A stretch of 48,266 bases of DNA, taken from positions 1 to 48,266 of the forward strand of contig CAMXAZ010000016.1 in assembly GCA_947179295.1 (NCBI GenBank), given 5' to 3'. A program made the position numbers and the translations under genes. Positions 4,806 to 32,152 of this stretch are shown piece by piece. Within the stretch, counting starts at the first letter, position 1. The number at the start of each line of letters is the position of its first letter. The notes beneath the pieces were generated by a model. It saw nothing but the letters and a program-made list of their open reading frames with translations, searched no databases and was not told where the DNA came from. The stretch comes from an uncultured Muribaculaceae bacterium (GTDB taxonomy: Bacteria > Bacteroidota > Bacteroidia > Bacteroidales > Muribaculaceae).

Positions 4806-6302
4806 TTATGACGTAGCATTTAGCTTTTGCAGGAATTCATCGCGGTCGATAGCCTCTGATGCGCTGATTCGAGTTATCAGTCGTGTCCGTTTGGTGTAAA
4901 ACGATTTCAACTTCATTCCGGTGAACATACACACCGCTCTCGGAGAAAAACCCGCATAGATCAGGACTATGAACCGGATGTCATCTTCTTTGAGCAGGGT
5001 GGCGCATTGGCTGCGCAGGCGGCTGGCTATTGAGTCCATGCACTCGTCGACCGAGGCCTCGATCTGACGTAGTTTGAGAGGCGTTTTAAGCCGTTCTATC
5101 TCTTTTTCGACCTCCTTTATGATGAAGGCGCGGGTCTTTTCCGAATCGCCTTTCTCGAAAAATTCGTTGCAGAGGAAATTGATGGTCTGCCAGCGCTCGC
5201 GGAAGAGGTTTTCGATGCGCGTGTTCATGGCGGATGACGATGCATGTCCGCGAGCTATCTTGTTGCTAAGATTGGCGAGCGATTCCATCTGCGCTTCGAT
5301 TTCGGCGTTTTTTACTTTCATGCGCAGGCGGTAGTAAGCATAGCCCGCGGCCACAATGACGATAAACAGCAGTGTGACACAGATGAGGATTGTCCGCAGG
5401 CTTGAAGCCCGCGAGTGTTGTTCGGAGGCCCGGTCCGACTGGAAATCGCGTTGAGCACCTACAACGGTCTCGGATGCTGTGGGCTGTCGGCCATAGAGCC
5501 GTCGTTCGCGTAGGCTGTCGGTGTAGTTTTTCCAAAGTTCCGGCTCTCCGGCATTTCTGTAACATTCGGCTGTGGCCCAGTCGATCAGCTTGTATTCCGA
5601 TTCGGTTTTCGCTATCGCGCGAGCACTGTCGAGATAGAGGCCGTAGTCTGCCGCCTCTGTCTCGATCTCGGCAGCTATTTCGGGCAGTACATGGCGATAG
5701 TCTTCGGCCTTGGCTTTCATCGTGCTTCTGCTGATGGCGAGATAGGCATAGTCTGCGGCTGTCGGAGTGAAGAAACGGCGGTATTGTTTCAGTTTGCGGC
5801 TGTCGAATTCCCGGAGACCGTCGAGCCTTGCCGTGATGCGCATTGATGCCCGCAGGCAGTTGGCTGTCAGAGCCGAATCGCAGCCGGCTATTGACCGGAT
5901 GCTGTCCAGCAGAAACATTCCGAGGCGCAGGCTGTCGTTGTTGGCGTGGGCTATAGCCACATCCAACATGGCATAGCGGTGTGCCCTGACACTGTCGGCT
6001 TGAAGGTATTGCGTTGCTGCATTGAGTCGATGCTCCACCACTTCATGTCCGCCGTAAGTCGCGGCTATTATGTCGGCAAGCAGGTCTTCGGCCTGCCCGC
6101 AAAGATAGTGGTCGCCATCTTCGCGGGCAAGTTCCAGAAGCTGCATCGCAGGCGTGACCGCCGCGCTGTATTCCCCTGTGCGGTAGAGCGAGTCGGCATC
6201 GTTAAGCAAGGTTGCTTTGAAGTGCCTATTTTCAACTCTGCAGCAGTTTATAAGAGTTAAGCAGCTGCCTAAGACCCATATTATTTTATGTATGGTAAGC
6301 AC
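4806..6302 (-). CDS. Lipid-anchored transmembrane TPR-HTH regulator
   Basis: 498 residues with an unusual layout. A short hydrophobic N-terminus ends in a lipobox-like L-I-N-C (C20). A helical TPR-like region of about 270 residues follows, then one membrane segment at about 305-327 (ILICVTLLFIVIVAAGYAYY), a coiled-coil stretch, and a C-terminal helix-turn-helix around residues 445-480 (FSPRAVCMFTGMKLKSFYTKRTR). This architecture recurs in Bacteroidetes proteins annotated as tetratricopeptide or LuxR-like transcriptional regulators, which are thought to sense in the periplasm and bind DNA at the membrane. It follows two small lipoprotein genes on the same strand at a 110-base distance, suggesting a shared role. 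The ligand and target genes are unknown. Confidence 0.7.
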   Translation of the reverse strand: MLTIHKIIWVLGSCLTLINCCRVENRHFKATLLNDADSLYRTGEYSAAVTPAMQLLELAREDGDHYLCGQAEDLLADIIAATYGGHEVVEHRLNAATQYLQADSVRAHRYAMLDVAIAHANNDSLRLGMFLLDSIRSIAGCDSALTANCLRASMRITARLDGLREFDSRKLKQYRRFFTPTAADYAYLAISRSTMKAKAEDYRHVLPEIAAEIETEAADYGLYLDSARAIAKTESEYKLIDWATAECYRNAGEPELWKNYTDSLRERRLYGRQPTASETVVGAQRDFQSDRASEQHSRASSLRTILICVTLLFIVIVAAGYAYYRLRMKVKNAEIEAQMESLANLSNKIARGHASSSAMNTRIENLFRERWQTINFLCNEFFEKGDSEKTRAFIIKEVEKEIERLKTPLKLRQIEASVDECMDSIASRLRSQCATLLKEDDIRFIVLIYAGFSPRAVCMFTGMKLKSFYTKRTRLITRISASEAIDRDEFLQKLNATS

Positions 6303-6412: not shown

Positions 6413-7249
6413 TTATATTGTATCTTCGTAAAATAGGAAGTCAACAAGTTGAAGAGTTGAATAAGCGGTTAACATGTAATAATGATTTTCTTTATATGGC
6501 TTTATTCCAAGATAAAGTTTTAAAAAGCAGTCTTCTCCATAAGTGATAAAATGATCATCAACCTTATTCAATGGTGTTTCGGCCGTTGCAATTATTAAAT
6601 TTTGTTTAATTTCAGGCTTAAGACGACAAGCATAGACTTCACACAGAGCTGTTAATGTTACGAAAGGAGCGGAATTGGCATGTACAACATGGATTGTGTC
6701 TCTTTGGCCTCTTTGAACTGTACAGCCATCAATAAAAGGCCAAAATTCACAAGTGCTAAATCTTGCCCGCGATATAGAGGAAGTAGTTTTATTTGTTAAT
6801 CGAACATCTTTATATTTTTTTATGCGGTTCACCGTTTCTTTGATTCCGGTCGTCAGATTCAAAGTTTTTCCTGCTGATATAATTTGAGCAATCTGATCAT
6901 TTATAGAATCTTGATATTTTAATCGCTCATGATAATATGCAGATGAGACACCTAACTTGTTAGCTTCTTCTTCAGATATAGTGATATGGAATTTGTTGTC
7001 TGTGAAGTCTGTATGCTCGGAAATAATCAAACTTGATTTCCAACGCTGTTTTGCTTCTTCACTCAATTCTTTTATAATAGATATAGGTAAATACAGAGAA
7101 TCTGCTTCAGCTTGCAATTTATTGGCGTCTATAATAGAGGATTGTAAAGACAATTCTGGTTCAGCATTGAAGTCATCGCCTTGATTACAAGCACAAAAGC
7201 AAAGTATAGAAATTATAAATGAGGATAATGATATGGTTAGAGATTTCAT
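6413..7249 (-). CDS. Lipoprotein of unknown function, AT-rich gene
   Basis: 278 residues with a type II signal peptide (MKSLTISLSSF, hydrophobic core, cysteine in FCACNQ at about 20), so probably an outer-membrane or periplasmic lipoprotein. No family was recognised. A segment near residues 90-125 (ITISEEEANKLGVSSAYYHERL, then DSINDQIAQII) closely resembles a segment in the lipoprotein encoded just upstream, so the two are likely diverged paralogues or share a module. The C-terminal half has several cysteines (STCEFWPFIDGCTV, ALCEVYACRL, GEDCFLKL). The gene is visibly much richer in A+T than its neighbours, which suggests horizontal transfer. Confidence 0.75.
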   Translation of the reverse strand: MKSLTISLSSFIISILCFCACNQGDDFNAEPELSLQSSIIDANKLQAEADSLYLPISIIKELSEEAKQRWKSSLIISEHTDFTDNKFHITISEEEANKLGVSSAYYHERLKYQDSINDQIAQIISAGKTLNLTTGIKETVNRIKKYKDVRLTNKTTSSISRARFSTCEFWPFIDGCTVQRGQRDTIHVVHANSAPFVTLTALCEVYACRLKPEIKQNLIIATAETPLNKVDDHFITYGEDCFLKLYLGIKPYKENHYYMLTAYSTLQLVDFLFYEDTI

Positions 7250-12191: not shown

Positions 12192-13022
12192 TCAGATTAC
12201 TCCGTAGGTCGAGAGCAGGATTGTCATGTGGTCACGGAGCTTGCGGGCCTCGGCGGCGGCGGCGTCAGCGAAATCGGTGCCGGAAGAGGCATAGATGATG
12301 CCGCGCGATGAGTTGACGAGCAGTCCGCATTCTGGGGTCATGCCCCATTTGGCCACTTCTTCGAGGCTGCCGCCCTGGGCGCCTACGCCGGGAACGAGCA
12401 GGAAGCTCCGGGGGGCTACACGGCGCACTTCGGCAAACATTGCGCCCTGAGTTGCGCCGACAACGAACATGAGGTTTTCTGTTGTGCCCCACTTCTGGGC
12501 TGTTTCCAGCACGTGCTCGAAGAGGCGGGTGCCTGTCATGTCGGTCAGGAACTGGAAGTCGCGGCTGCCGGGATTGGAGGTCAGGGCAAGGAGGATCACC
12601 CACTTGCCTTCGTAGTCCATGAACGGCTTCACGCTGTCAAATCCCATGTAGGGAGCCACGGTGATGGCATCTACACCCATGTTCTCGAAAAATGCGCGGG
12701 CATAGAGCGAGGAAGTGTTGCCGATGTCACCGCGCTTTGCGTCGGCGATGATGAAGTGGTCAGGATAATTGGTGCGCAGGTAGCTGACGGTGCGTTCCAG
12801 AGTCTGCCAGCCTTCTGTGCCCCGGCTTTCATAGAAAGCTGTATTGGGCTTATAGGCTACGCAGTAGGGAGCGGTGGCGTCAATGATAGCCTTGTTGAAG
12901 GCGAACATCGGATCTTCCTCCGTCAGAAGATGCTCCGGGATCTTCTTGATGTCAGTGTCGAGTCCAACGCAGAGAAAGGTGCCCTTCTTGCGGATTTGGT
13001 CGATGATTTGCTGTCTGTTCAT
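12192..13022 (-). CDS. pyrF: Orotidine 5'-phosphate decarboxylase
   Basis: 276 residues; catalyses the last step of UMP synthesis, decarboxylation of OMP. The catalytic motif [11 protein letters not shown] places D94, K96 and D99 as the Asp-Lys-Asp triad. The length and the motif followed by NTS fit the longer subfamily 2 type found in Bacteroidetes and mycobacteria. Phosphate-binding residues are in the segment [10 protein letters not shown] near residue 210. It follows prfA on the same strand with a 27-base gap, so the two are likely co-transcribed. Confidence 0.96.
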
Positions 13023-13049
13023 ATCTTGTTGAATAGCTTGTTTTTGCGG

Positions 13050-14159
13050 TTAAAGTTCTGCGGCTTTGAGCTTTTCGGCGTTTTCAGCGATTGTCAGCTG
13101 GTCGATGACATCCTGGATCTCGCCGTCCATGAAAGCCTGCAGGTTATAGATTGTGTAGTTGATACGGTGGTCGGTGATGCGCCCCTGCGGGTAGTTGTAG
13201 GTGCGGATTTTGGCCGATCGGTCGCCGGTCGAGACGAGGGTTTTGCGCCGTGAGGCTATGTCGTCGATGTATTTCTGGTGTTCCTTGTCATAGATGAATG
13301 TGCGCAGGCGGCTGAGTGCGCGCTCCTTGTTTTTGGGCTGGTCGCGGGTTTCTGTACATTCTATCAGAATCTCTTCGCTCTCGCCGGTATTGGGGTTGCG
13401 CCACATGTAGCGCAGGCGCACACCTGATTCAACCTTGTTGACGTTCTGACCGCCTGCTCCGCCCGAACGGAAGGTGTCCCATTTGATCTCGCCCTCGTTG
13501 ATCTCCACGTCGAAGGCCTCCGCTTCGGGTAGCACAGCTACTGTGGCGGCCGATGTGTGGACGCGGCCCTGGGTTTCGGTTGCCGGAACTCGCTGCACGC
13601 GGTGCACACCGCTCTCGTATTTCAGCGTGCCGTAGACGTTGTCGCCTGTGACAGCAACCACAATCTCCTTGAATCCTCCGGCAGCGCCCTCGCTGAAACT
13701 GGTGACAGCCACATTCCAGCCTTTTGACTCGCAGTATTTGACATACATCTTGTAAAGGTCGCCGGCAAAGATGGCGGCTTCGTCGCCTCCGGTGCCGCCG
13801 CGGATTTCGAGAATGGCATTCTTGCCGTCTTCCGGATCGGCCGGAATCAGCAGCAGTTTTATTTCTTCCTCAATGGCCGGTATGGCCTCGGTGGCTTCGT
13901 CGAGCTCCTCTTTAGCCATTTCGCGGAGTTCAGGGTCATTTTCAGACGCAAGCACCTCGCGGGCTTCGTCGATGTTGCCTAAAAGCTCGCGGTAACGGCG
14001 TGTCACAGCCGTGAGTTTTTCAAGATCCTTATACTCTTTGGTCAGGCGGACATAGCGTTTCATGTCCTGGATCACAGAGGGATCTGTGATCAAAGTTCCC
14101 ACTTCCTCGAAGCGGGCCTCAATGCCGTCCAACCGGGTCAAAAGGGAATTTTCAGCCAT
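13050..14159 (-). CDS. prfA: Peptide chain release factor 1
   Basis: 369 residues. RF1 recognises UAA and UAG and triggers peptide release. The anticodon-like PAT tripeptide is at 192-194 ([10 protein letters not shown]), which distinguishes it from RF2 (SPF). The catalytic GGQ is at 236-238 ([11 protein letters not shown]), where Gln is normally methylated by PrmC. An N-terminal coiled-coil region occupies about 1-100. A minus-strand promoter element lies 21 bases upstream, and pyrF follows closely. Confidence 0.97.
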
Positions 14160-26698: not shown

Positions 26699-29080
26699 AT
26701 GAAAAGATTTGCAATATTCACCTTGGTGGCATTGCTCTGCTCTATGTTCGGATTTGCCGAGACCACAGGACGTCTTGAAGCATTTCCGGGAGCCGAGGGC
26801 TATGGCCGCTACACGTCAGGTGGTCGCGGTGGAGCTGTTTATCATGTAACAACTCTTGAAGACAACAACAATCCCGGTTCTTTCCGTTATGCCTGCAATC
26901 AGTCAGGTCCGAGAACTATTGTCTTTGATGTTTCAGGAACAATACATCTGACTTCTGAACTCAAACTAACAAACGGCAACCTCACCATAGCCGGACAGAC
27001 CGCTCCCGGCGATGGTATCTGCATTGCCGACTATCCTTTCTCGATCAGTGCAAACAATGTCATCATCCGTTTCATGCGTTTCCGTCTCGGCAATAAGAAT
27101 GCCACTGCCGGTGGTGCCGACGGCTGGGATGCTCTCGGATGTCTTGACCACAAGCACATCATCATTGACCACTGTTCTGTCAGCTGGAGCCTTGACGAAT
27201 GTCTGTCATTCAGCGGAACCAGCTACACAACCGTGCAGTGGTGCATCGTGTCTCATTCCCTCGTTCACTCAGGCCACTCAAAGGGCAATCACGGCTACGG
27301 TGGCAACTGGGGCGGTGAGTATGCTTCATATCATCATAATCTGATGGCTCACCACACTTCACGTGCTCCCCGCCTTGGCCCGCGTCCGTCGACCCAGCTC
27401 AAAGAGTACATGGACATGCGTAACAATGTCATCTACAACTATTCCGGTGAAGGTTGCTACGGTGGTGAAGGCATGAATGTCAACATTGTCAATAACTACT
27501 ACATTCCCGGTCCCGGTAATAAATATGTCACAGCTACAGGCTCTACCGCCTATAAGGCTTCGCGTGTTGCCGGTATCGGTGTGCGTACAGTCGATTATGT
27601 CACAAATGCCCCGGCCTATGCGGATGCACTCCATAAAATCGGCACATATTATGTAGACGGCAATGAAAATAAGAGTGTCTCTGCCGTCAAGGATGACAAC
27701 TGGGCAAATGGTATCTACAATCAGATTTCCTGGTCTGACTGGGATGATCTTGCCACTACAAACACACAGAGGGAAGCAATCAAAAAGCAGATGAAACTCG
27801 ACAAGCCTATCGAGTTTGAATATACCACTACGCATACAAGCCAGAATGCATATGCTCAGGTTGTCAATTTTGCCGGAGCATGTCGGATGCCAGGTTTTGC
27901 TCCCATCCGTGATGCCTATGACGCTTCGATTCTTGCGAATGCCAGGGCTGCTACAACAGTGATGGGTACCGGTAATGAGTATGATAACAGCGGTAATCTT
28001 ACAGGCAACAAGATGGGAACAGGCTTTATCAATACCGTAGACGATATCGAATACCCGTCTACATATAAGGCCGGTGTTGATTATGATGCCACTACCAAAC
28101 TCCCTATTCTTAAATCAGAAGCAGCTCTCAAGGACACTGACGGTGACGGTATGCCCGATGAATATGAGACTAAGAACGGTCTCAACCCCAATGATCCTTC
28201 AGACGGCGCCCAGCGTTCAAAATCAGGATTTACAAATCTTGAAGTCTATCTGAATTCTCTGGTACAAACTCTGATGGACAGATGTGTGTCCGGAGGCAAG
28301 CTTCTTAACGGACAGCTTACCTACAATGATGCCGCAGTTACCCTCCCGGTATTTGACATAAACCTTTACAATGCCGCTGAAGATCCTGTGAATGACAATA
28401 GTGTCAACAGCTATAATCCTTCAGGCGGTGGCGATGACGAAGATGACGCTCCGGGTAAAATTTCGGTTAACCCTGAAAAACTCACATCGTTCGGCGCAAA
28501 TGAGACCCTTTATGAAGATGACAACATCAAGATCGCCACATATTACGCCACTACCGGCGGTGGTGACGGAAAGGCTTATGTCTATCCCGACGGACAGTCA
28601 TTCTTCGGCTGGATCGAAATGCGTGGTAAAGCTCCTTCTGCAGCTAATCCTGCAGGCGAACAGGATTCCAAATCTCCTCTGATTGTGACTGTCAAAAATG
28701 CTCTTACGCTGACGGCATATCTTCGCACAGGCGGCAACAAGGAGAATGCCGTAAATATGTATGATCAGGCTAACCCCACGGTTGCATTGACAAAGGTAGC
28801 TGACAGCGAAGAAGATCCGACAAGCAGCTCAAACAGCTTCTGGCAGTTTACCTGGACTCTTCCTGCCGGCACATATACTTTGACCGAAGTTTCAGGAACC
28901 GGTCGTGTCTCCGGCTTCTGCTATGAGCTTGGCGACCAGTCCGGCATCGAGGATATCGTCATTGATCCCGCCAAGCCTCAGGGCAACGGCAAGATCTACA
29001 ACATCATGGGTGTCGAAGTCAAGGAGCCGCTGCTCCCCGGCATCTATATCCGTGACGGAAAGAAGTTCCTTGTGAAATAA
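26699..29080 (+). CDS. Secreted pectate-lyase-like protein with T9SS-type tail
   Basis: 793 residues. A signal peptide (1-20) is followed by a right-handed beta-helix of the PL1 pectate-lyase type, about 25-430 (FPGAEGYGRYTSGGRGG, VYHVTTLEDNNNPGSFRY, DHCSVSWSLDE, HHTSRAPRLGPRP). A thrombospondin-type-3-like Ca2+ motif, DTDGDGMPDEYE, sits near 480. A beta-sandwich-like domain follows (about 575-735). The C-terminal tail reads KIYNIMGVEV...PGIYIRDGKKFLVK, typical of type A sorting domains of the type IX secretion system. It would cleave polygalacturonate by beta-elimination if active. Exact PL subfamily and substrate are unproven. It is the first of two related genes in tandem. Confidence 0.85.
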   Translation: MKRFAIFTLVALLCSMFGFAETTGRLEAFPGAEGYGRYTSGGRGGAVYHVTTLEDNNNPGSFRYACNQSGPRTIVFDVSGTIHLTSELKLTNGNLTIAGQTAPGDGICIADYPFSISANNVIIRFMRFRLGNKNATAGGADGWDALGCLDHKHIIIDHCSVSWSLDECLSFSGTSYTTVQWCIVSHSLVHSGHSKGNHGYGGNWGGEYASYHHNLMAHHTSRAPRLGPRPSTQLKEYMDMRNNVIYNYSGEGCYGGEGMNVNIVNNYYIPGPGNKYVTATGSTAYKASRVAGIGVRTVDYVTNAPAYADALHKIGTYYVDGNENKSVSAVKDDNWANGIYNQISWSDWDDLATTNTQREAIKKQMKLDKPIEFEYTTTHTSQNAYAQVVNFAGACRMPGFAPIRDAYDASILANARAATTVMGTGNEYDNSGNLTGNKMGTGFINTVDDIEYPSTYKAGVDYDATTKLPILKSEAALKDTDGDGMPDEYETKNGLNPNDPSDGAQRSKSGFTNLEVYLNSLVQTLMDRCVSGGKLLNGQLTYNDAAVTLPVFDINLYNAAEDPVNDNSVNSYNPSGGGDDEDDAPGKISVNPEKLTSFGANETLYEDDNIKIATYYATTGGGDGKAYVYPDGQSFFGWIEMRGKAPSAANPAGEQDSKSPLIVTVKNALTLTAYLRTGGNKENAVNMYDQANPTVALTKVADSEEDPTSSSNSFWQFTWTLPAGTYTLTEVSGTGRVSGFCYELGDQSGIEDIVIDPAKPQGNGKIYNIMGVEVKEPLLPGIYIRDGKKFLVK

Positions 29081-29121: not shown

Positions 29122-29153
29122 CGGCAGGGGCGCTTGAAAAGGCGTTCCTGCCG
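29122..29153 (+). terminator. Hairpin between the two lyase genes
   Basis: A 12-bp stem with two G-U pairs (29122-29133 with 29142-29153, core CGGCAGG/CCTGCCG) and an 8-base loop, followed by TGAATTTTATG. It may attenuate transcription between the genes. Because it ends on the GTG at 29153, that codon is an unlikely start for the next gene. Confidence 0.55.
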
Positions 29154-29176: not shown

Positions 29177-32152
29177 ATGAAACGGATTAATTTGCTGACA
29201 GTCGCCATGCTGCTGGCTTCAAGTGGCTATGCCTTGCCTCCTGACGGTTTCCCGCGTTCGATGCGACCTGACCGTCAGCGTAAGGTGATGCAAAAAGAAA
29301 CGGTACCCTCCGTATGGATCAGGCCTTCGGTAGCCGCTTTCCCAGGCGCAGAGGGCTTCGGCATGTGGACCACCGGCGGCCGTGGCGGCCGGGTGTATCA
29401 TGTCACGACTCTTGATGACAATGACAGTCCCGGTTCATTCCGCTATGCCTGCAATCAGTCCGGCCCGCGAACAATCGTTTTTGATGTCGACGGCACTATT
29501 TTCCTGAAATCGCCCCTGCGGCTTGAAAATCCGGATGTGACGATAGCCGGACAGACCGCTCCCGGCGATGGAGTCTGCATTGCCGACTATCCGTTTCTCA
29601 TCCAGGCCGACAATGTGATAGTCCGTTTCATGCGTTTTCGTCTCGGCGACCGTGAAGTGGCCCATCACGAAGGCGACGGTCTCGGCGGCAGCGGTCATCG
29701 CAATGTGATGGTTGACCATTGCTCCGTGAGCTGGAGCATTGACGAGTGCATCTCGGTCTACGGTATGACTGACTTCACCGTGCAGTGGTGCATCGCATCC
29801 CACAGTCTCCATAACAGCGGCCATCAGAAAGGTGCTCACGGCTACGGCGGAAACTGGGGCGGCAGCGGCGCAAGCTATCATCACAACCTTGTGGCAAACC
29901 ATACGTCGCGCACACCGCGTCTCGGACCGAGCCCGCACACCCAGACTGACGAGCGCATGGATCTGCGTAACAACGTGATCTATAACTACGGCTCAAACGG
30001 ATGCTATGGAGGCGAGGGCATGACTGTGAACATAGTCAACAATTATTTTAAACCCGGCAAGACCACAAACACCATGCCTGAGCGCATAGCGGGTCCCGGA
30101 ATACGCACCGTGCAGTACTGTCTCAACGGCCGCGGGCTTGCTGAAGACTATAACCGCCTGTTCGGCACAAGCCTGAGCCGCGACGATGTCAAAGGCTTGC
30201 GTGAGGGCAAGGGGCGCAAGGGTGTGAACCGCGTTAGTGTAGGCAGGCGCATTTTTGAGATCGACATGGCCGACAACAGTATCGAAGTTGACGGACATAA
30301 ACTGAAAATAGACTGGAACGTATGGCGCCCGATGCTTCACAAATGGGGCCGCTTTTATGTGAGCGGCAACGAGAACCATGACATCGCAGCAGTCGGAGCC
30401 GACAACTGGGGCGTAGGCGTCAAGCGCCAGATAAAACCTGCCGGCTGTGACGGTTATTGGGATAAATCCATTGCGGATGAAATCCGTCTCGATGAGCCTA
30501 TGGACTTTGAGACGGTGACTACCCATACAGCCCGCGAAGCCTATGAACGGGTGCTCGACTGCGCCGGAGCCTCGCTTTGCCGTGATGCCTATGACAGTCT
30601 TGTCATCAGTGACGTGCGTGAGGGCAATGCGTCATTCGGCAAAAACGGCATCATTGACACTCAGGATGAGGTTGTCTATGCCGACGGATCGCGCGGCTGG
30701 CCTGCTCTGAACAGCGGTGTGGCTCCGGCCGACACTGACGGCGACGGGATTCCCGATGACTGGGAAAGGTCCAACGGTCTTGATCCGGATGATGCTTCTG
30801 ACGGCAGTCTCATAGGTAAATCAGGTTACAGCAATCTGGAGCTCTATATGAATTCTCTGGTCGCCGATGTGATGGAGGCCGGGCTGAAAGGCGGGACACA
30901 GTCTGCTCAGATACGCGAGACATCCTCTTCTGATTTCGGCCGGAAGTTTGAAGACCGCACCCTGCGTGTCGACTATCTCTTCACAGCCACTCCCGCCGGC
31001 GGCAGAGCGGTATCTCTTGCCGGTCAGTCGGGAATCGACGGATGGGCCGGCCGGCGCCATAGAATGTCGGAACTGCCTTTGCTTGGAAACGGCACGGTCA
31101 CAATGGTTTCAGAGGCCGACGGTGACACGCTCTACCGCACATCGTTCTCTTCTCTCTATCATGAGTGGCTTACCACCGAGGAGGCTTCAGAAGTAGCAAA
31201 GGCTTTCGAGCACACGGTGCTTCTGCCTTATCCGGTCTCTCCGGCCCGCATAAGCGTCGAGCTGCTTGACAACCGCCATAAGCCTATAGCCTCGATGACC
31301 CACCGGTTTGATCCGAAAGATATTCTGATCACGAGGAAAGGCCACGGCCGGGTGGCGGAGCACCGCTACATCCACCGTGGCGGTGATCCGAAGGATGCCA
31401 TAGATGTGGCTATTCTTGCCGAGGGCTATACAAGAGCGGAGATGGACAGTTTCTATCGTCATGCCCGTACGGCAGTCGATGCAATACTTTCCTACGAGCC
31501 GTTCAAGTCGCGGGCCGACAAGTTCAATTTTGTCGCCGTGGCCACACCTTCGGCCGATTCCGGCGTGAGTGTGCCCCGTCTGGGCGAATGGAAATCCACG
31601 GCATTCTCTTCGCATTTCAGCACATTTTATTCTAACCGCTATCTGACGAGCCTGCATGTCAGGGATATTCATGACGCCTTGGCCGGAATACCTTATGAAC
31701 ATATCATAATTCTGGCAAACACTCCGGAGTATGGCGGCGGTGGCATATATAACAGCTATACGCTGACCACTTCGCGTCACGCGAATTTCCGGCCTGTGGT
31801 GGTCCATGAATTCGGCCACAGTTTCGGCGGCCTGGCTGATGAATATTTCTATGAGACCGAGACCAATGACGAGGCCTATCCCGCAGATGTGGAGCCTTGG
31901 GAACCGAACATCACCACGCTGGTCGATTTTGAGAGCAAGTGGAAAGATCTGATTCCCAAAGGCGCACCGCAGCCCACGCCGGTTTCTGAAGCATCCAAAT
32001 GGCCCGTAGGACTTTATGAGGGTGGCGGTTACTCTTTTCATGGAGTGTATCGGCCCGCCGATGACTGCCGTATGCGCACCAACACAGCTCCTGACTTCTG
32101 CCCGGCCTGCCGCAGAGCCATGACCCGCCTGATCGACTTCTACACAGAATAG
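29177..32152 (+). CDS. Pectate lyase - M64 metallopeptidase fusion
   Basis: 991 residues from the ATG at 29177 (MKRINLLTVAMLLASSGYA, a type I signal peptide); ATGs at 29162 and 29174 and a GTG at 29153 are alternatives. Residues about 52-470 are a PL1-type beta-helix very similar to the preceding protein (FPGAEGFGMWTTGGRGG, DHCSVSWSIDE, NHTSRTPRLGPSP). A Ca2+-type motif DTDGDGIPDDWE lies near 519. Residues about 590-730 match the M64 N-terminal domain (FEDRTLRVDYLFTA, GWAGRRHRMSELPLLGNG). About 740-991 is the M64 (IgA-peptidase family) catalytic domain with the zinc motif HEFGHSFGGLADEY at 877-890. It has no sorting tail. One intact frame joins a polysaccharide lyase to a protease. Confidence 0.88.
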   Translation: MKRINLLTVAMLLASSGYALPPDGFPRSMRPDRQRKVMQKETVPSVWIRPSVAAFPGAEGFGMWTTGGRGGRVYHVTTLDDNDSPGSFRYACNQSGPRTIVFDVDGTIFLKSPLRLENPDVTIAGQTAPGDGVCIADYPFLIQADNVIVRFMRFRLGDREVAHHEGDGLGGSGHRNVMVDHCSVSWSIDECISVYGMTDFTVQWCIASHSLHNSGHQKGAHGYGGNWGGSGASYHHNLVANHTSRTPRLGPSPHTQTDERMDLRNNVIYNYGSNGCYGGEGMTVNIVNNYFKPGKTTNTMPERIAGPGIRTVQYCLNGRGLAEDYNRLFGTSLSRDDVKGLREGKGRKGVNRVSVGRRIFEIDMADNSIEVDGHKLKIDWNVWRPMLHKWGRFYVSGNENHDIAAVGADNWGVGVKRQIKPAGCDGYWDKSIADEIRLDEPMDFETVTTHTAREAYERVLDCAGASLCRDAYDSLVISDVREGNASFGKNGIIDTQDEVVYADGSRGWPALNSGVAPADTDGDGIPDDWERSNGLDPDDASDGSLIGKSGYSNLELYMNSLVADVMEAGLKGGTQSAQIRETSSSDFGRKFEDRTLRVDYLFTATPAGGRAVSLAGQSGIDGWAGRRHRMSELPLLGNGTVTMVSEADGDTLYRTSFSSLYHEWLTTEEASEVAKAFEHTVLLPYPVSPARISVELLDNRHKPIASMTHRFDPKDILITRKGHGRVAEHRYIHRGGDPKDAIDVAILAEGYTRAEMDSFYRHARTAVDAILSYEPFKSRADKFNFVAVATPSADSGVSVPRLGEWKSTAFSSHFSTFYSNRYLTSLHVRDIHDALAGIPYEHIIILANTPEYGGGGIYNSYTLTTSRHANFRPVVVHEFGHSFGGLADEYFYETETNDEAYPADVEPWEPNITTLVDFESKWKDLIPKGAPQPTPVSEASKWPVGLYEGGGYSFHGVYRPADDCRMRTNTAPDFCPACRRAMTRLIDFYTE

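Follow-up and report, generated by a model that had tools for sequence, protein, structure and literature searches.

The closest described systems are a zinc peptidase and a pectate lyase. Peptidase family M64 is defined by the motif HEXXHXXXGXXD, and its largest cluster (CL-I, 1933 proteins) is of the Bacteroides fragilis BF3526 type (PMC12402451). There, BF3526 left intact immunoglobulins IgA1, IgA2 and IgG1 uncut, trimmed pre-cut fragments near the N-terminus, converted VPCPVPSTPP to CPVPSTPP and VPSTPP, and also cut after Ser, Gly, Thr and Cys with proline preferred; BF3526 nicked with chymotrypsin did cut IgA, and the authors see the M64_N domain as a gate (PMC12402451). The cleavage pattern can be described as dipeptide-wise and proline-preferring. 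BF3526 (PDB 4DF9, 9QDI) and BACOVA_00663 (3P1V), both of CL-I, consist of M64_N plus M64 and are free-standing, with PDB chains 407 and 409 residues long. PfPL1 of Pseudoalteromonas fuliginea (PDB 9buj) belongs to PL1 subfamily 2 (PL1_2) with BT_4115, BT_4116, BT_4119 and PelZ; the members characterized so far act on pectins, the activity of PfPL1 being cited, and the C-terminus of PfPL1 carries a pseudo-EF-hand Ca site (PMC11229556). The PfPL1 gene lies in a pectin locus and no peptidase is described on PfPL1, whereas in the protein analyzed here a peptidase continues the same chain. This protein is encoded at positions 29177-32152 (+) of a 48,266-nucleotide stretch (the window) of an uncultured Muribaculaceae bacterium (assembly GCA_947179295.1, contig CAMXAZ010000016.1, positions 1-48,266). 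It is a genuine, conserved fusion of two known enzyme families, a PL1_2 lyase and an M64 peptidase, and this pairing was found in a few genomes of one genus only.

The preliminary description of this DNA, made from its letters alone, had proposed a single protein joining a pectate lyase to a complete M64 peptidase, and this was borne out by one 991-residue open reading frame (ORF) without internal stops, in which both halves were matched; an alternative GTG start is possible at 29153, 8 codons upstream. The described M64_N and catalytic domains, with the motif at amino acids (aa) 877-890, were also recovered, as PF16217 (113.5 bits, cut-off 27) and PF09471 (216.2 bits, cut-off 26) both scored far above their curated cut-offs and the family motif was present as HEFGHSFGGLAD at aa 877-888. 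By phmmer, PDB 3P1V matched aa 586-990 (expect value, E, 4.5e-166) and 4DF9 matched aa 585-990 (E 1.1e-165), with 53-56% identity between the window protein and the two CL-I enzymes (54% for BF3526 over the M64 half). Published BF3526 residue numbers (PMC12402451) were transferred through the PDB-match alignment, and 14 of the 16 substrate, catalytic and second-zinc residues were identical: the zinc ligands H877, H881 and D888 and the base E878; the substrate contacts E663, R821, Y822, Y852, G856 and Y890; and the second zinc site E889, C964, C975 and C978. The window protein has E895 and N897 where BF3526 has D329 and M331, described as loop-loop contacts (PMC12402451). Because the BF3526 residues are the same, the M64 half would be expected to carry out the same reaction.

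For the lyase half, no Pfam lyase model matched the fused protein at E ≤ 1, so that the domain search proposed in the preliminary description returned both M64 models but no lyase; NCBIfam PelZ (NF041900) matched aa 51-273 (E 1.5e-31) at 109.7 bits against an equivalog cut-off of 840, and on sequence the half is judged a relative of PelZ, not PelZ proper. PDB 9buj matched aa 52-300 (phmmer, E 1.1e-64), pectin-active PfPL1 is the nearest lyase structure, and the PL1_2 beta-helix fold and C-terminal region are present. The lyase had been placed at about aa 52-470 with a DTDGDG motif; the PL1_2 assignment stands, but the domain runs to about aa 578 and includes DTDGDG. Alignment A2 held 39 of 56 lyase rows and 20 of 22 M64 rows; alignment A4 (41 lyases) held those 39 lyases, some cut shorter, and two window proteins. 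R245 aligned with Arg220 of PfPL1 and was invariant in 41/41 lyases, as were R248, R264, K218, H221, D180, H181, D189, E190, D262 and E280 (alignment numbering plus 50). A loop at about aa 300-385 was considered as a fusion-specific insert and rejected, being present in other stand-alone lyases too. The suggested structure prediction gave a fold for both halves; the full-length model had a predicted local distance difference test (pLDDT) of 72.3 and a predicted template modeling score (pTM) of 0.49 with aa 447-584 unreliable, and for these reasons no domain orientation is claimed. The linker between lyase and M64_N is short, about ten residues.

The same architecture, which the preliminary description had recommended seeking elsewhere, was found in four further genomes of the genus, here as in all searches among sampled genomes and not whole collections. 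Near-full-length M64 was present in 12 of 27 genus genomes (own included), in frames of 971-1014 codons in five and 436-495 codons in seven; all five long frames carry the lyase, so that the fusion occurs in 5/27, and the other four fused proteins are 97, 74, 74 and 73% identical to that of the window. A query across the junction (aa 520-640, E ≤ 1e-14) was spanned by exactly five of 397 family genomes and, among 393 order genomes, by the window's own alone. The other matches in family genomes were one-sided, a few running slightly past the junction coordinate (G014, query 1-97 in a 638-codon frame; G277, 1-82, 806 codons; G707, 52-121, 484 codons); the M64 searches list no M64 in G014 and a free-standing size for G277. 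M64 was matched at E ≤ 1e-60 in 116 of 297 family genomes, with frames above 900 codons only in the five, and M64_N in 62 of 395 phylum genomes, with only the window's own frame above 700 codons (others 185-639). Among 105 loci taken with flanks of up to 8 kb (only about 1.5 kb for 25), 47 had M64, 58 had lyase and none had both. In a contig scan the best 80 of 559 relatives, which may omit records near the window's genome, matched one side of the junction, a few lyase matches reaching aa 592-687; a viral scan with two lyase patterns gave 14 relatives, all lyase-side, and none of 167 matching plasmid records covered 80% of the query. A lyase match at E ≤ 1e-90 was present in 21/27 genus genomes, fused genes included, and PL1_2 lyases with a C-terminal tail are common in the genus. 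Separately, a lyase-like match in G008 (C8:49924-50115) falls within a 1315-codon open frame, which may be a further unusual architecture. In the literature on M64 peptidases, pectate lyases and gene fusions, searched by title and abstract opening, no paper announces a lyase-M64 architecture; domain databases may list it.

Both halves are under purifying selection, the ratios of nonsynonymous to synonymous substitution (dN/dS) between the window and G004 being 0.048 and 0.039 for the two halves; for other pairs of fused genes dS was saturated and the ratios were not relied on. Guanine-plus-cytosine content (GC), overall and at third codon positions (GC3), was alike in the two halves, and no tandem repeats were found in the fused gene.

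In the lyase tree, built without the broken G001 stand-alone lyase and the window genome's own C49 paralogue, the five fused lyase halves formed one clade with 100/100 support, and the nearest named lyase was Muribaculaceae record L062. The tailed lyases adjacent to M64 genes fell apart from this clade, five of six in another. An origin of the fused lyase as a recent tandem copy of its neighbor was rejected, the fused lyases being their own long-branched clade. The neighboring lyase of G006 groups weakly (88/58) with the fused lineage, possibly through partial gene conversion. In G010 the free-standing M64 has a signal peptide, then a degenerate copy of the lyase start (SPGAEGSDRYATG versus FPGAEGFGRYTTG), then M64_N; 34-38 of 57 bases of this scar match each fused gene in register, a level reached by 0/1000 composition-preserving shuffles in each of five comparisons. 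This scar on a free-standing M64 indicates that the fusion, once gained, was probably lost again at least one time. Most simply, a single gain preceded the loss in G010, which removed the lyase core in frame; G013, without a scar, may represent a second loss or the ancestral state. A single origin is most likely.

Table 1. Positions of the fused gene, its parts and the adjoining lyase in the window
Feature	Position	Strand	Details
Fused gene, PL1_2 lyase - M64_N - peptidase M64	29177..32152	+	991 aa; same architecture in G004, G006, G026, G001
Signal-peptide-like N-terminus, about aa 1-21, hydrophobic	29177..29239	+	By reading sequence
PL1 subfamily 2 pectate-lyase domain, aa 52-570	29330..30886	+	Profile, structure, alignment; order ends at about aa 580 in model
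R245, equivalent of catalytic Arg220 of PfPL1	29909..29911	+	Alignment; invariant in 41/41 lyases
DTDGDG, aa 519-524, calcium-type loop inside lyase C-terminal region	30731..30748	+	
Junction/linker, aa 571-585	30887..30931	+	Residues variable, 0 indels among five genomes
M64_N domain, aa 586-707	30932..31297	+	Pfam
Peptidase M64 domain	31373..32149	+	Pfam aa 733-939, structural match to aa 991
HEFGHSFGGLADEY, aa 877-890	31805..31846	+	Zinc ligands H877, H881, D888; base E878
Stand-alone PL1_2 lyase, 793 aa, C-terminal sorting-like tail	26699..29080	+	Adjoins fused gene, separate from it
C-terminal tail of stand-alone lyase	28931..29077	+	Recurs at 12 other genome places (E ≤ 0.1, most weak)

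The adjoining lyase (Table 1) is of the same family as the fused lyase, with 68% identity over aa 52-322, but has a sorting-like tail and no peptidase and belongs to a different clade. All six relatives with an adjacent lyase have this tail at its end (in G001, where the gene is broken, on the second frame), and the fused proteins gave no match to it at E ≤ 1e-4. The type IX component SprA is encoded in the genome; the fused protein carries no type IX C-terminal sorting domain at its end, which is the M64 domain, and no lipobox cysteine was seen on reading its N-terminus. Because it ends with M64 and is without the sorting-like tail of its neighbor, the fused protein is probably periplasmic.

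Gene order is prfA, pyrF, tailed lyase, fused gene in G006, G026 and G001; prfA, pyrF, tailed lyase, free-standing M64 in G013 and G010; and prfA, a 142-codon ORF, pyrF, M64 in G015, with no lyase in the 18-kb stretch. M64 was also without lyase in the 14.6-18 kb taken from G003, G002, G008 and G012. Relatives' prfA and pyrF are 93-96% and 84-91% identical to the window copies, which are named by Pfam and lie at 12192-14159 (-), about 12 kb from the lyase and M64 genes and not directly upstream of them as in relatives; this is a local rearrangement, and methylmalonyl-CoA mutase genes and an iron alcohol dehydrogenase lie nearer. The lyase pair follows an iron alcohol dehydrogenase in both the window and G004. 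Compared between these two in 150-column steps of DNA, the core of the stand-alone lyase (26740-28900) shows for the most part only 45-85% identity, against about 93-98% at the start and tail of that gene and about 83-99% in the fused gene and the genes that follow; this looks like cassette exchange of the lyase core. The stand-alone lyase of G001 is broken into two frames (L028 4443-5156, 5153-6802), beside an intact fused gene. Elsewhere in the window, ORFs of 498 and 278 aa (4806-6302 and 6413-7249, both -) had no Pfam match at 1e-5.

Taken as a whole, the locus is probably best explained by an exported, probably periplasmic, two-enzyme protein of single origin, an account held with moderate confidence. 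Its N-terminal PL1_2 beta-helix lyase would cut polygalacturonate by beta-elimination with R245 as base, its C-terminal BF3526-like zinc peptidase would remove short N-terminal pieces, preferably proline-ended, from free flexible peptide N-termini, and M64_N would keep folded proteins away from the peptidase. In a single event, in an ancestor shared by one clade within the genus, a PL1_2 gene lacking the sorting-like tail would have been joined in frame to a stand-alone M64 gene already present, with the short linker between them, and at least one descendant would later have lost the lyase part. Lyase and peptidase would share one food source made up of pectin and proline-rich wall peptides, and a joint plant-cell-wall role, which the preliminary description had offered beside a host-directed one, is plausible. 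Hydroxyproline-rich glycoproteins are pectin-associated in plants, and a pectin lyase with a proline-preferring N-terminal trimmer would fit such substrates.

Several points weigh against this explanation. Both enzyme activities are predictions. No counterpart could be assigned to the second catalytic arginine of PfPL1: the number printed for it is Arg235, but residue 235 in the deposited 9buj chain is Glu. Curated sorting-domain models did not match the neighbor's tail, and the label 'sorting tail' is tentative because of this. The G010 draft carries ambiguous bases, which leaves a small chance of a collapsed assembly, though the decayed motif speaks against it. The fusion is absent from 22/27 genus genomes, and the best M64 tree does not unite the fused rows in one clade but places G013 and G010 inside the fused group. 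The M64 group of BF3526 is, according to its authors, not tied to carbohydrate genes (PMC12402451); the fused clade is an exception, though, apart from the fused gene, the longest complete ORF in the window has 810 aa, short of SusC size, and Pfam scans of 19 window proteins found neither SusC nor SusD, off-end ORFs and other contigs lying outside the scan.

It is possible, if on balance improbable, that the protein is a tolerated chimera whose domains work independently without a common substrate, the join saving a promoter, a signal peptide and a sorting step. G013 and G010 carry stand-alone lyase and M64 as adjacent genes, the lyase part seems to have disappeared from at least one lineage, M64 is free-standing in 7 of the 12 genus genomes with near-full-length M64, and the two groups of fused genes differ freely in their linker residues; yet the lyase half is about as constrained as the M64 half between the window and G004, and the junction is without indels among five genomes. 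That the protein is a dedicated wall glycoprotein-pectin enzyme, in which the lyase would free pectin-bound peptides and the tethered proline-preferring peptidase would strip X-Pro units from arabinogalactan-protein- or extensin-like chains, is considered unlikely.

Two independent fusions of related lyases to M64, one in the window's genome (G000) and G004 and the other in G006, G026 and G001, are very unlikely: the free-standing genes of G013 and G010 do lie between these groups in the best M64 tree, but the fused lyases are one clade, the junction is the same, G010 bears the scar, and an M64 tree with all fused rows together was not rejected (approximately unbiased test, AU, p 0.233). Little credence is given to a host-directed protease, an IgA or mucin glycoprotein peptidase borne on a glycan-binding beta-helix, although the protein is an M64 family member and the cutting of IgA by chymotrypsin-nicked BF3526 calls for caution. 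Its residues and M64_N match BF3526, which leaves intact IgA uncut (PMC12402451), and its nearest lyase structure is pectin-active PfPL1, with the catalytic Arg220 kept. The preliminary description had pointed out that the M64 family includes IgA peptidase; the IgA protease of Thomasclavelia ramosa (ThomasA/IgAse; 9ekk, 9qdh) shares the M64 catalytic fold but has other domains, cuts intact IgA and belongs to cluster CL-V (PMC12402451), and it matched the fused protein only at aa 742-793 by phmmer (best E 2.5e-5), with 19% identity over the structural match. On this distance and the published BF3526 data, identity as an IgA protease was rejected. Assembly error or a lost stop codon joining two genes, which the window's origin from a draft genome in 116 contigs might suggest (misassembly had been named as a possible refutation), is refuted because the same junction recurs in four further genomes at 73-97% protein identity, GC also being even.

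The physiological role of BF3526-type M64 enzymes has so far only been guessed at. That such an enzyme is naturally fused to a pectin-type lyase, and that selection maintains the fusion in several genomes, gives a testable indication that at least some BF3526-type enzymes process peptides released from plant walls and, if true, a wall glycoprotein-pectin role would be the first link of this large M64 group to carbohydrate breakdown. With the fusion beside unfused states and a scar of loss, the locus is also useful for study of the turnover of two-enzyme proteins.
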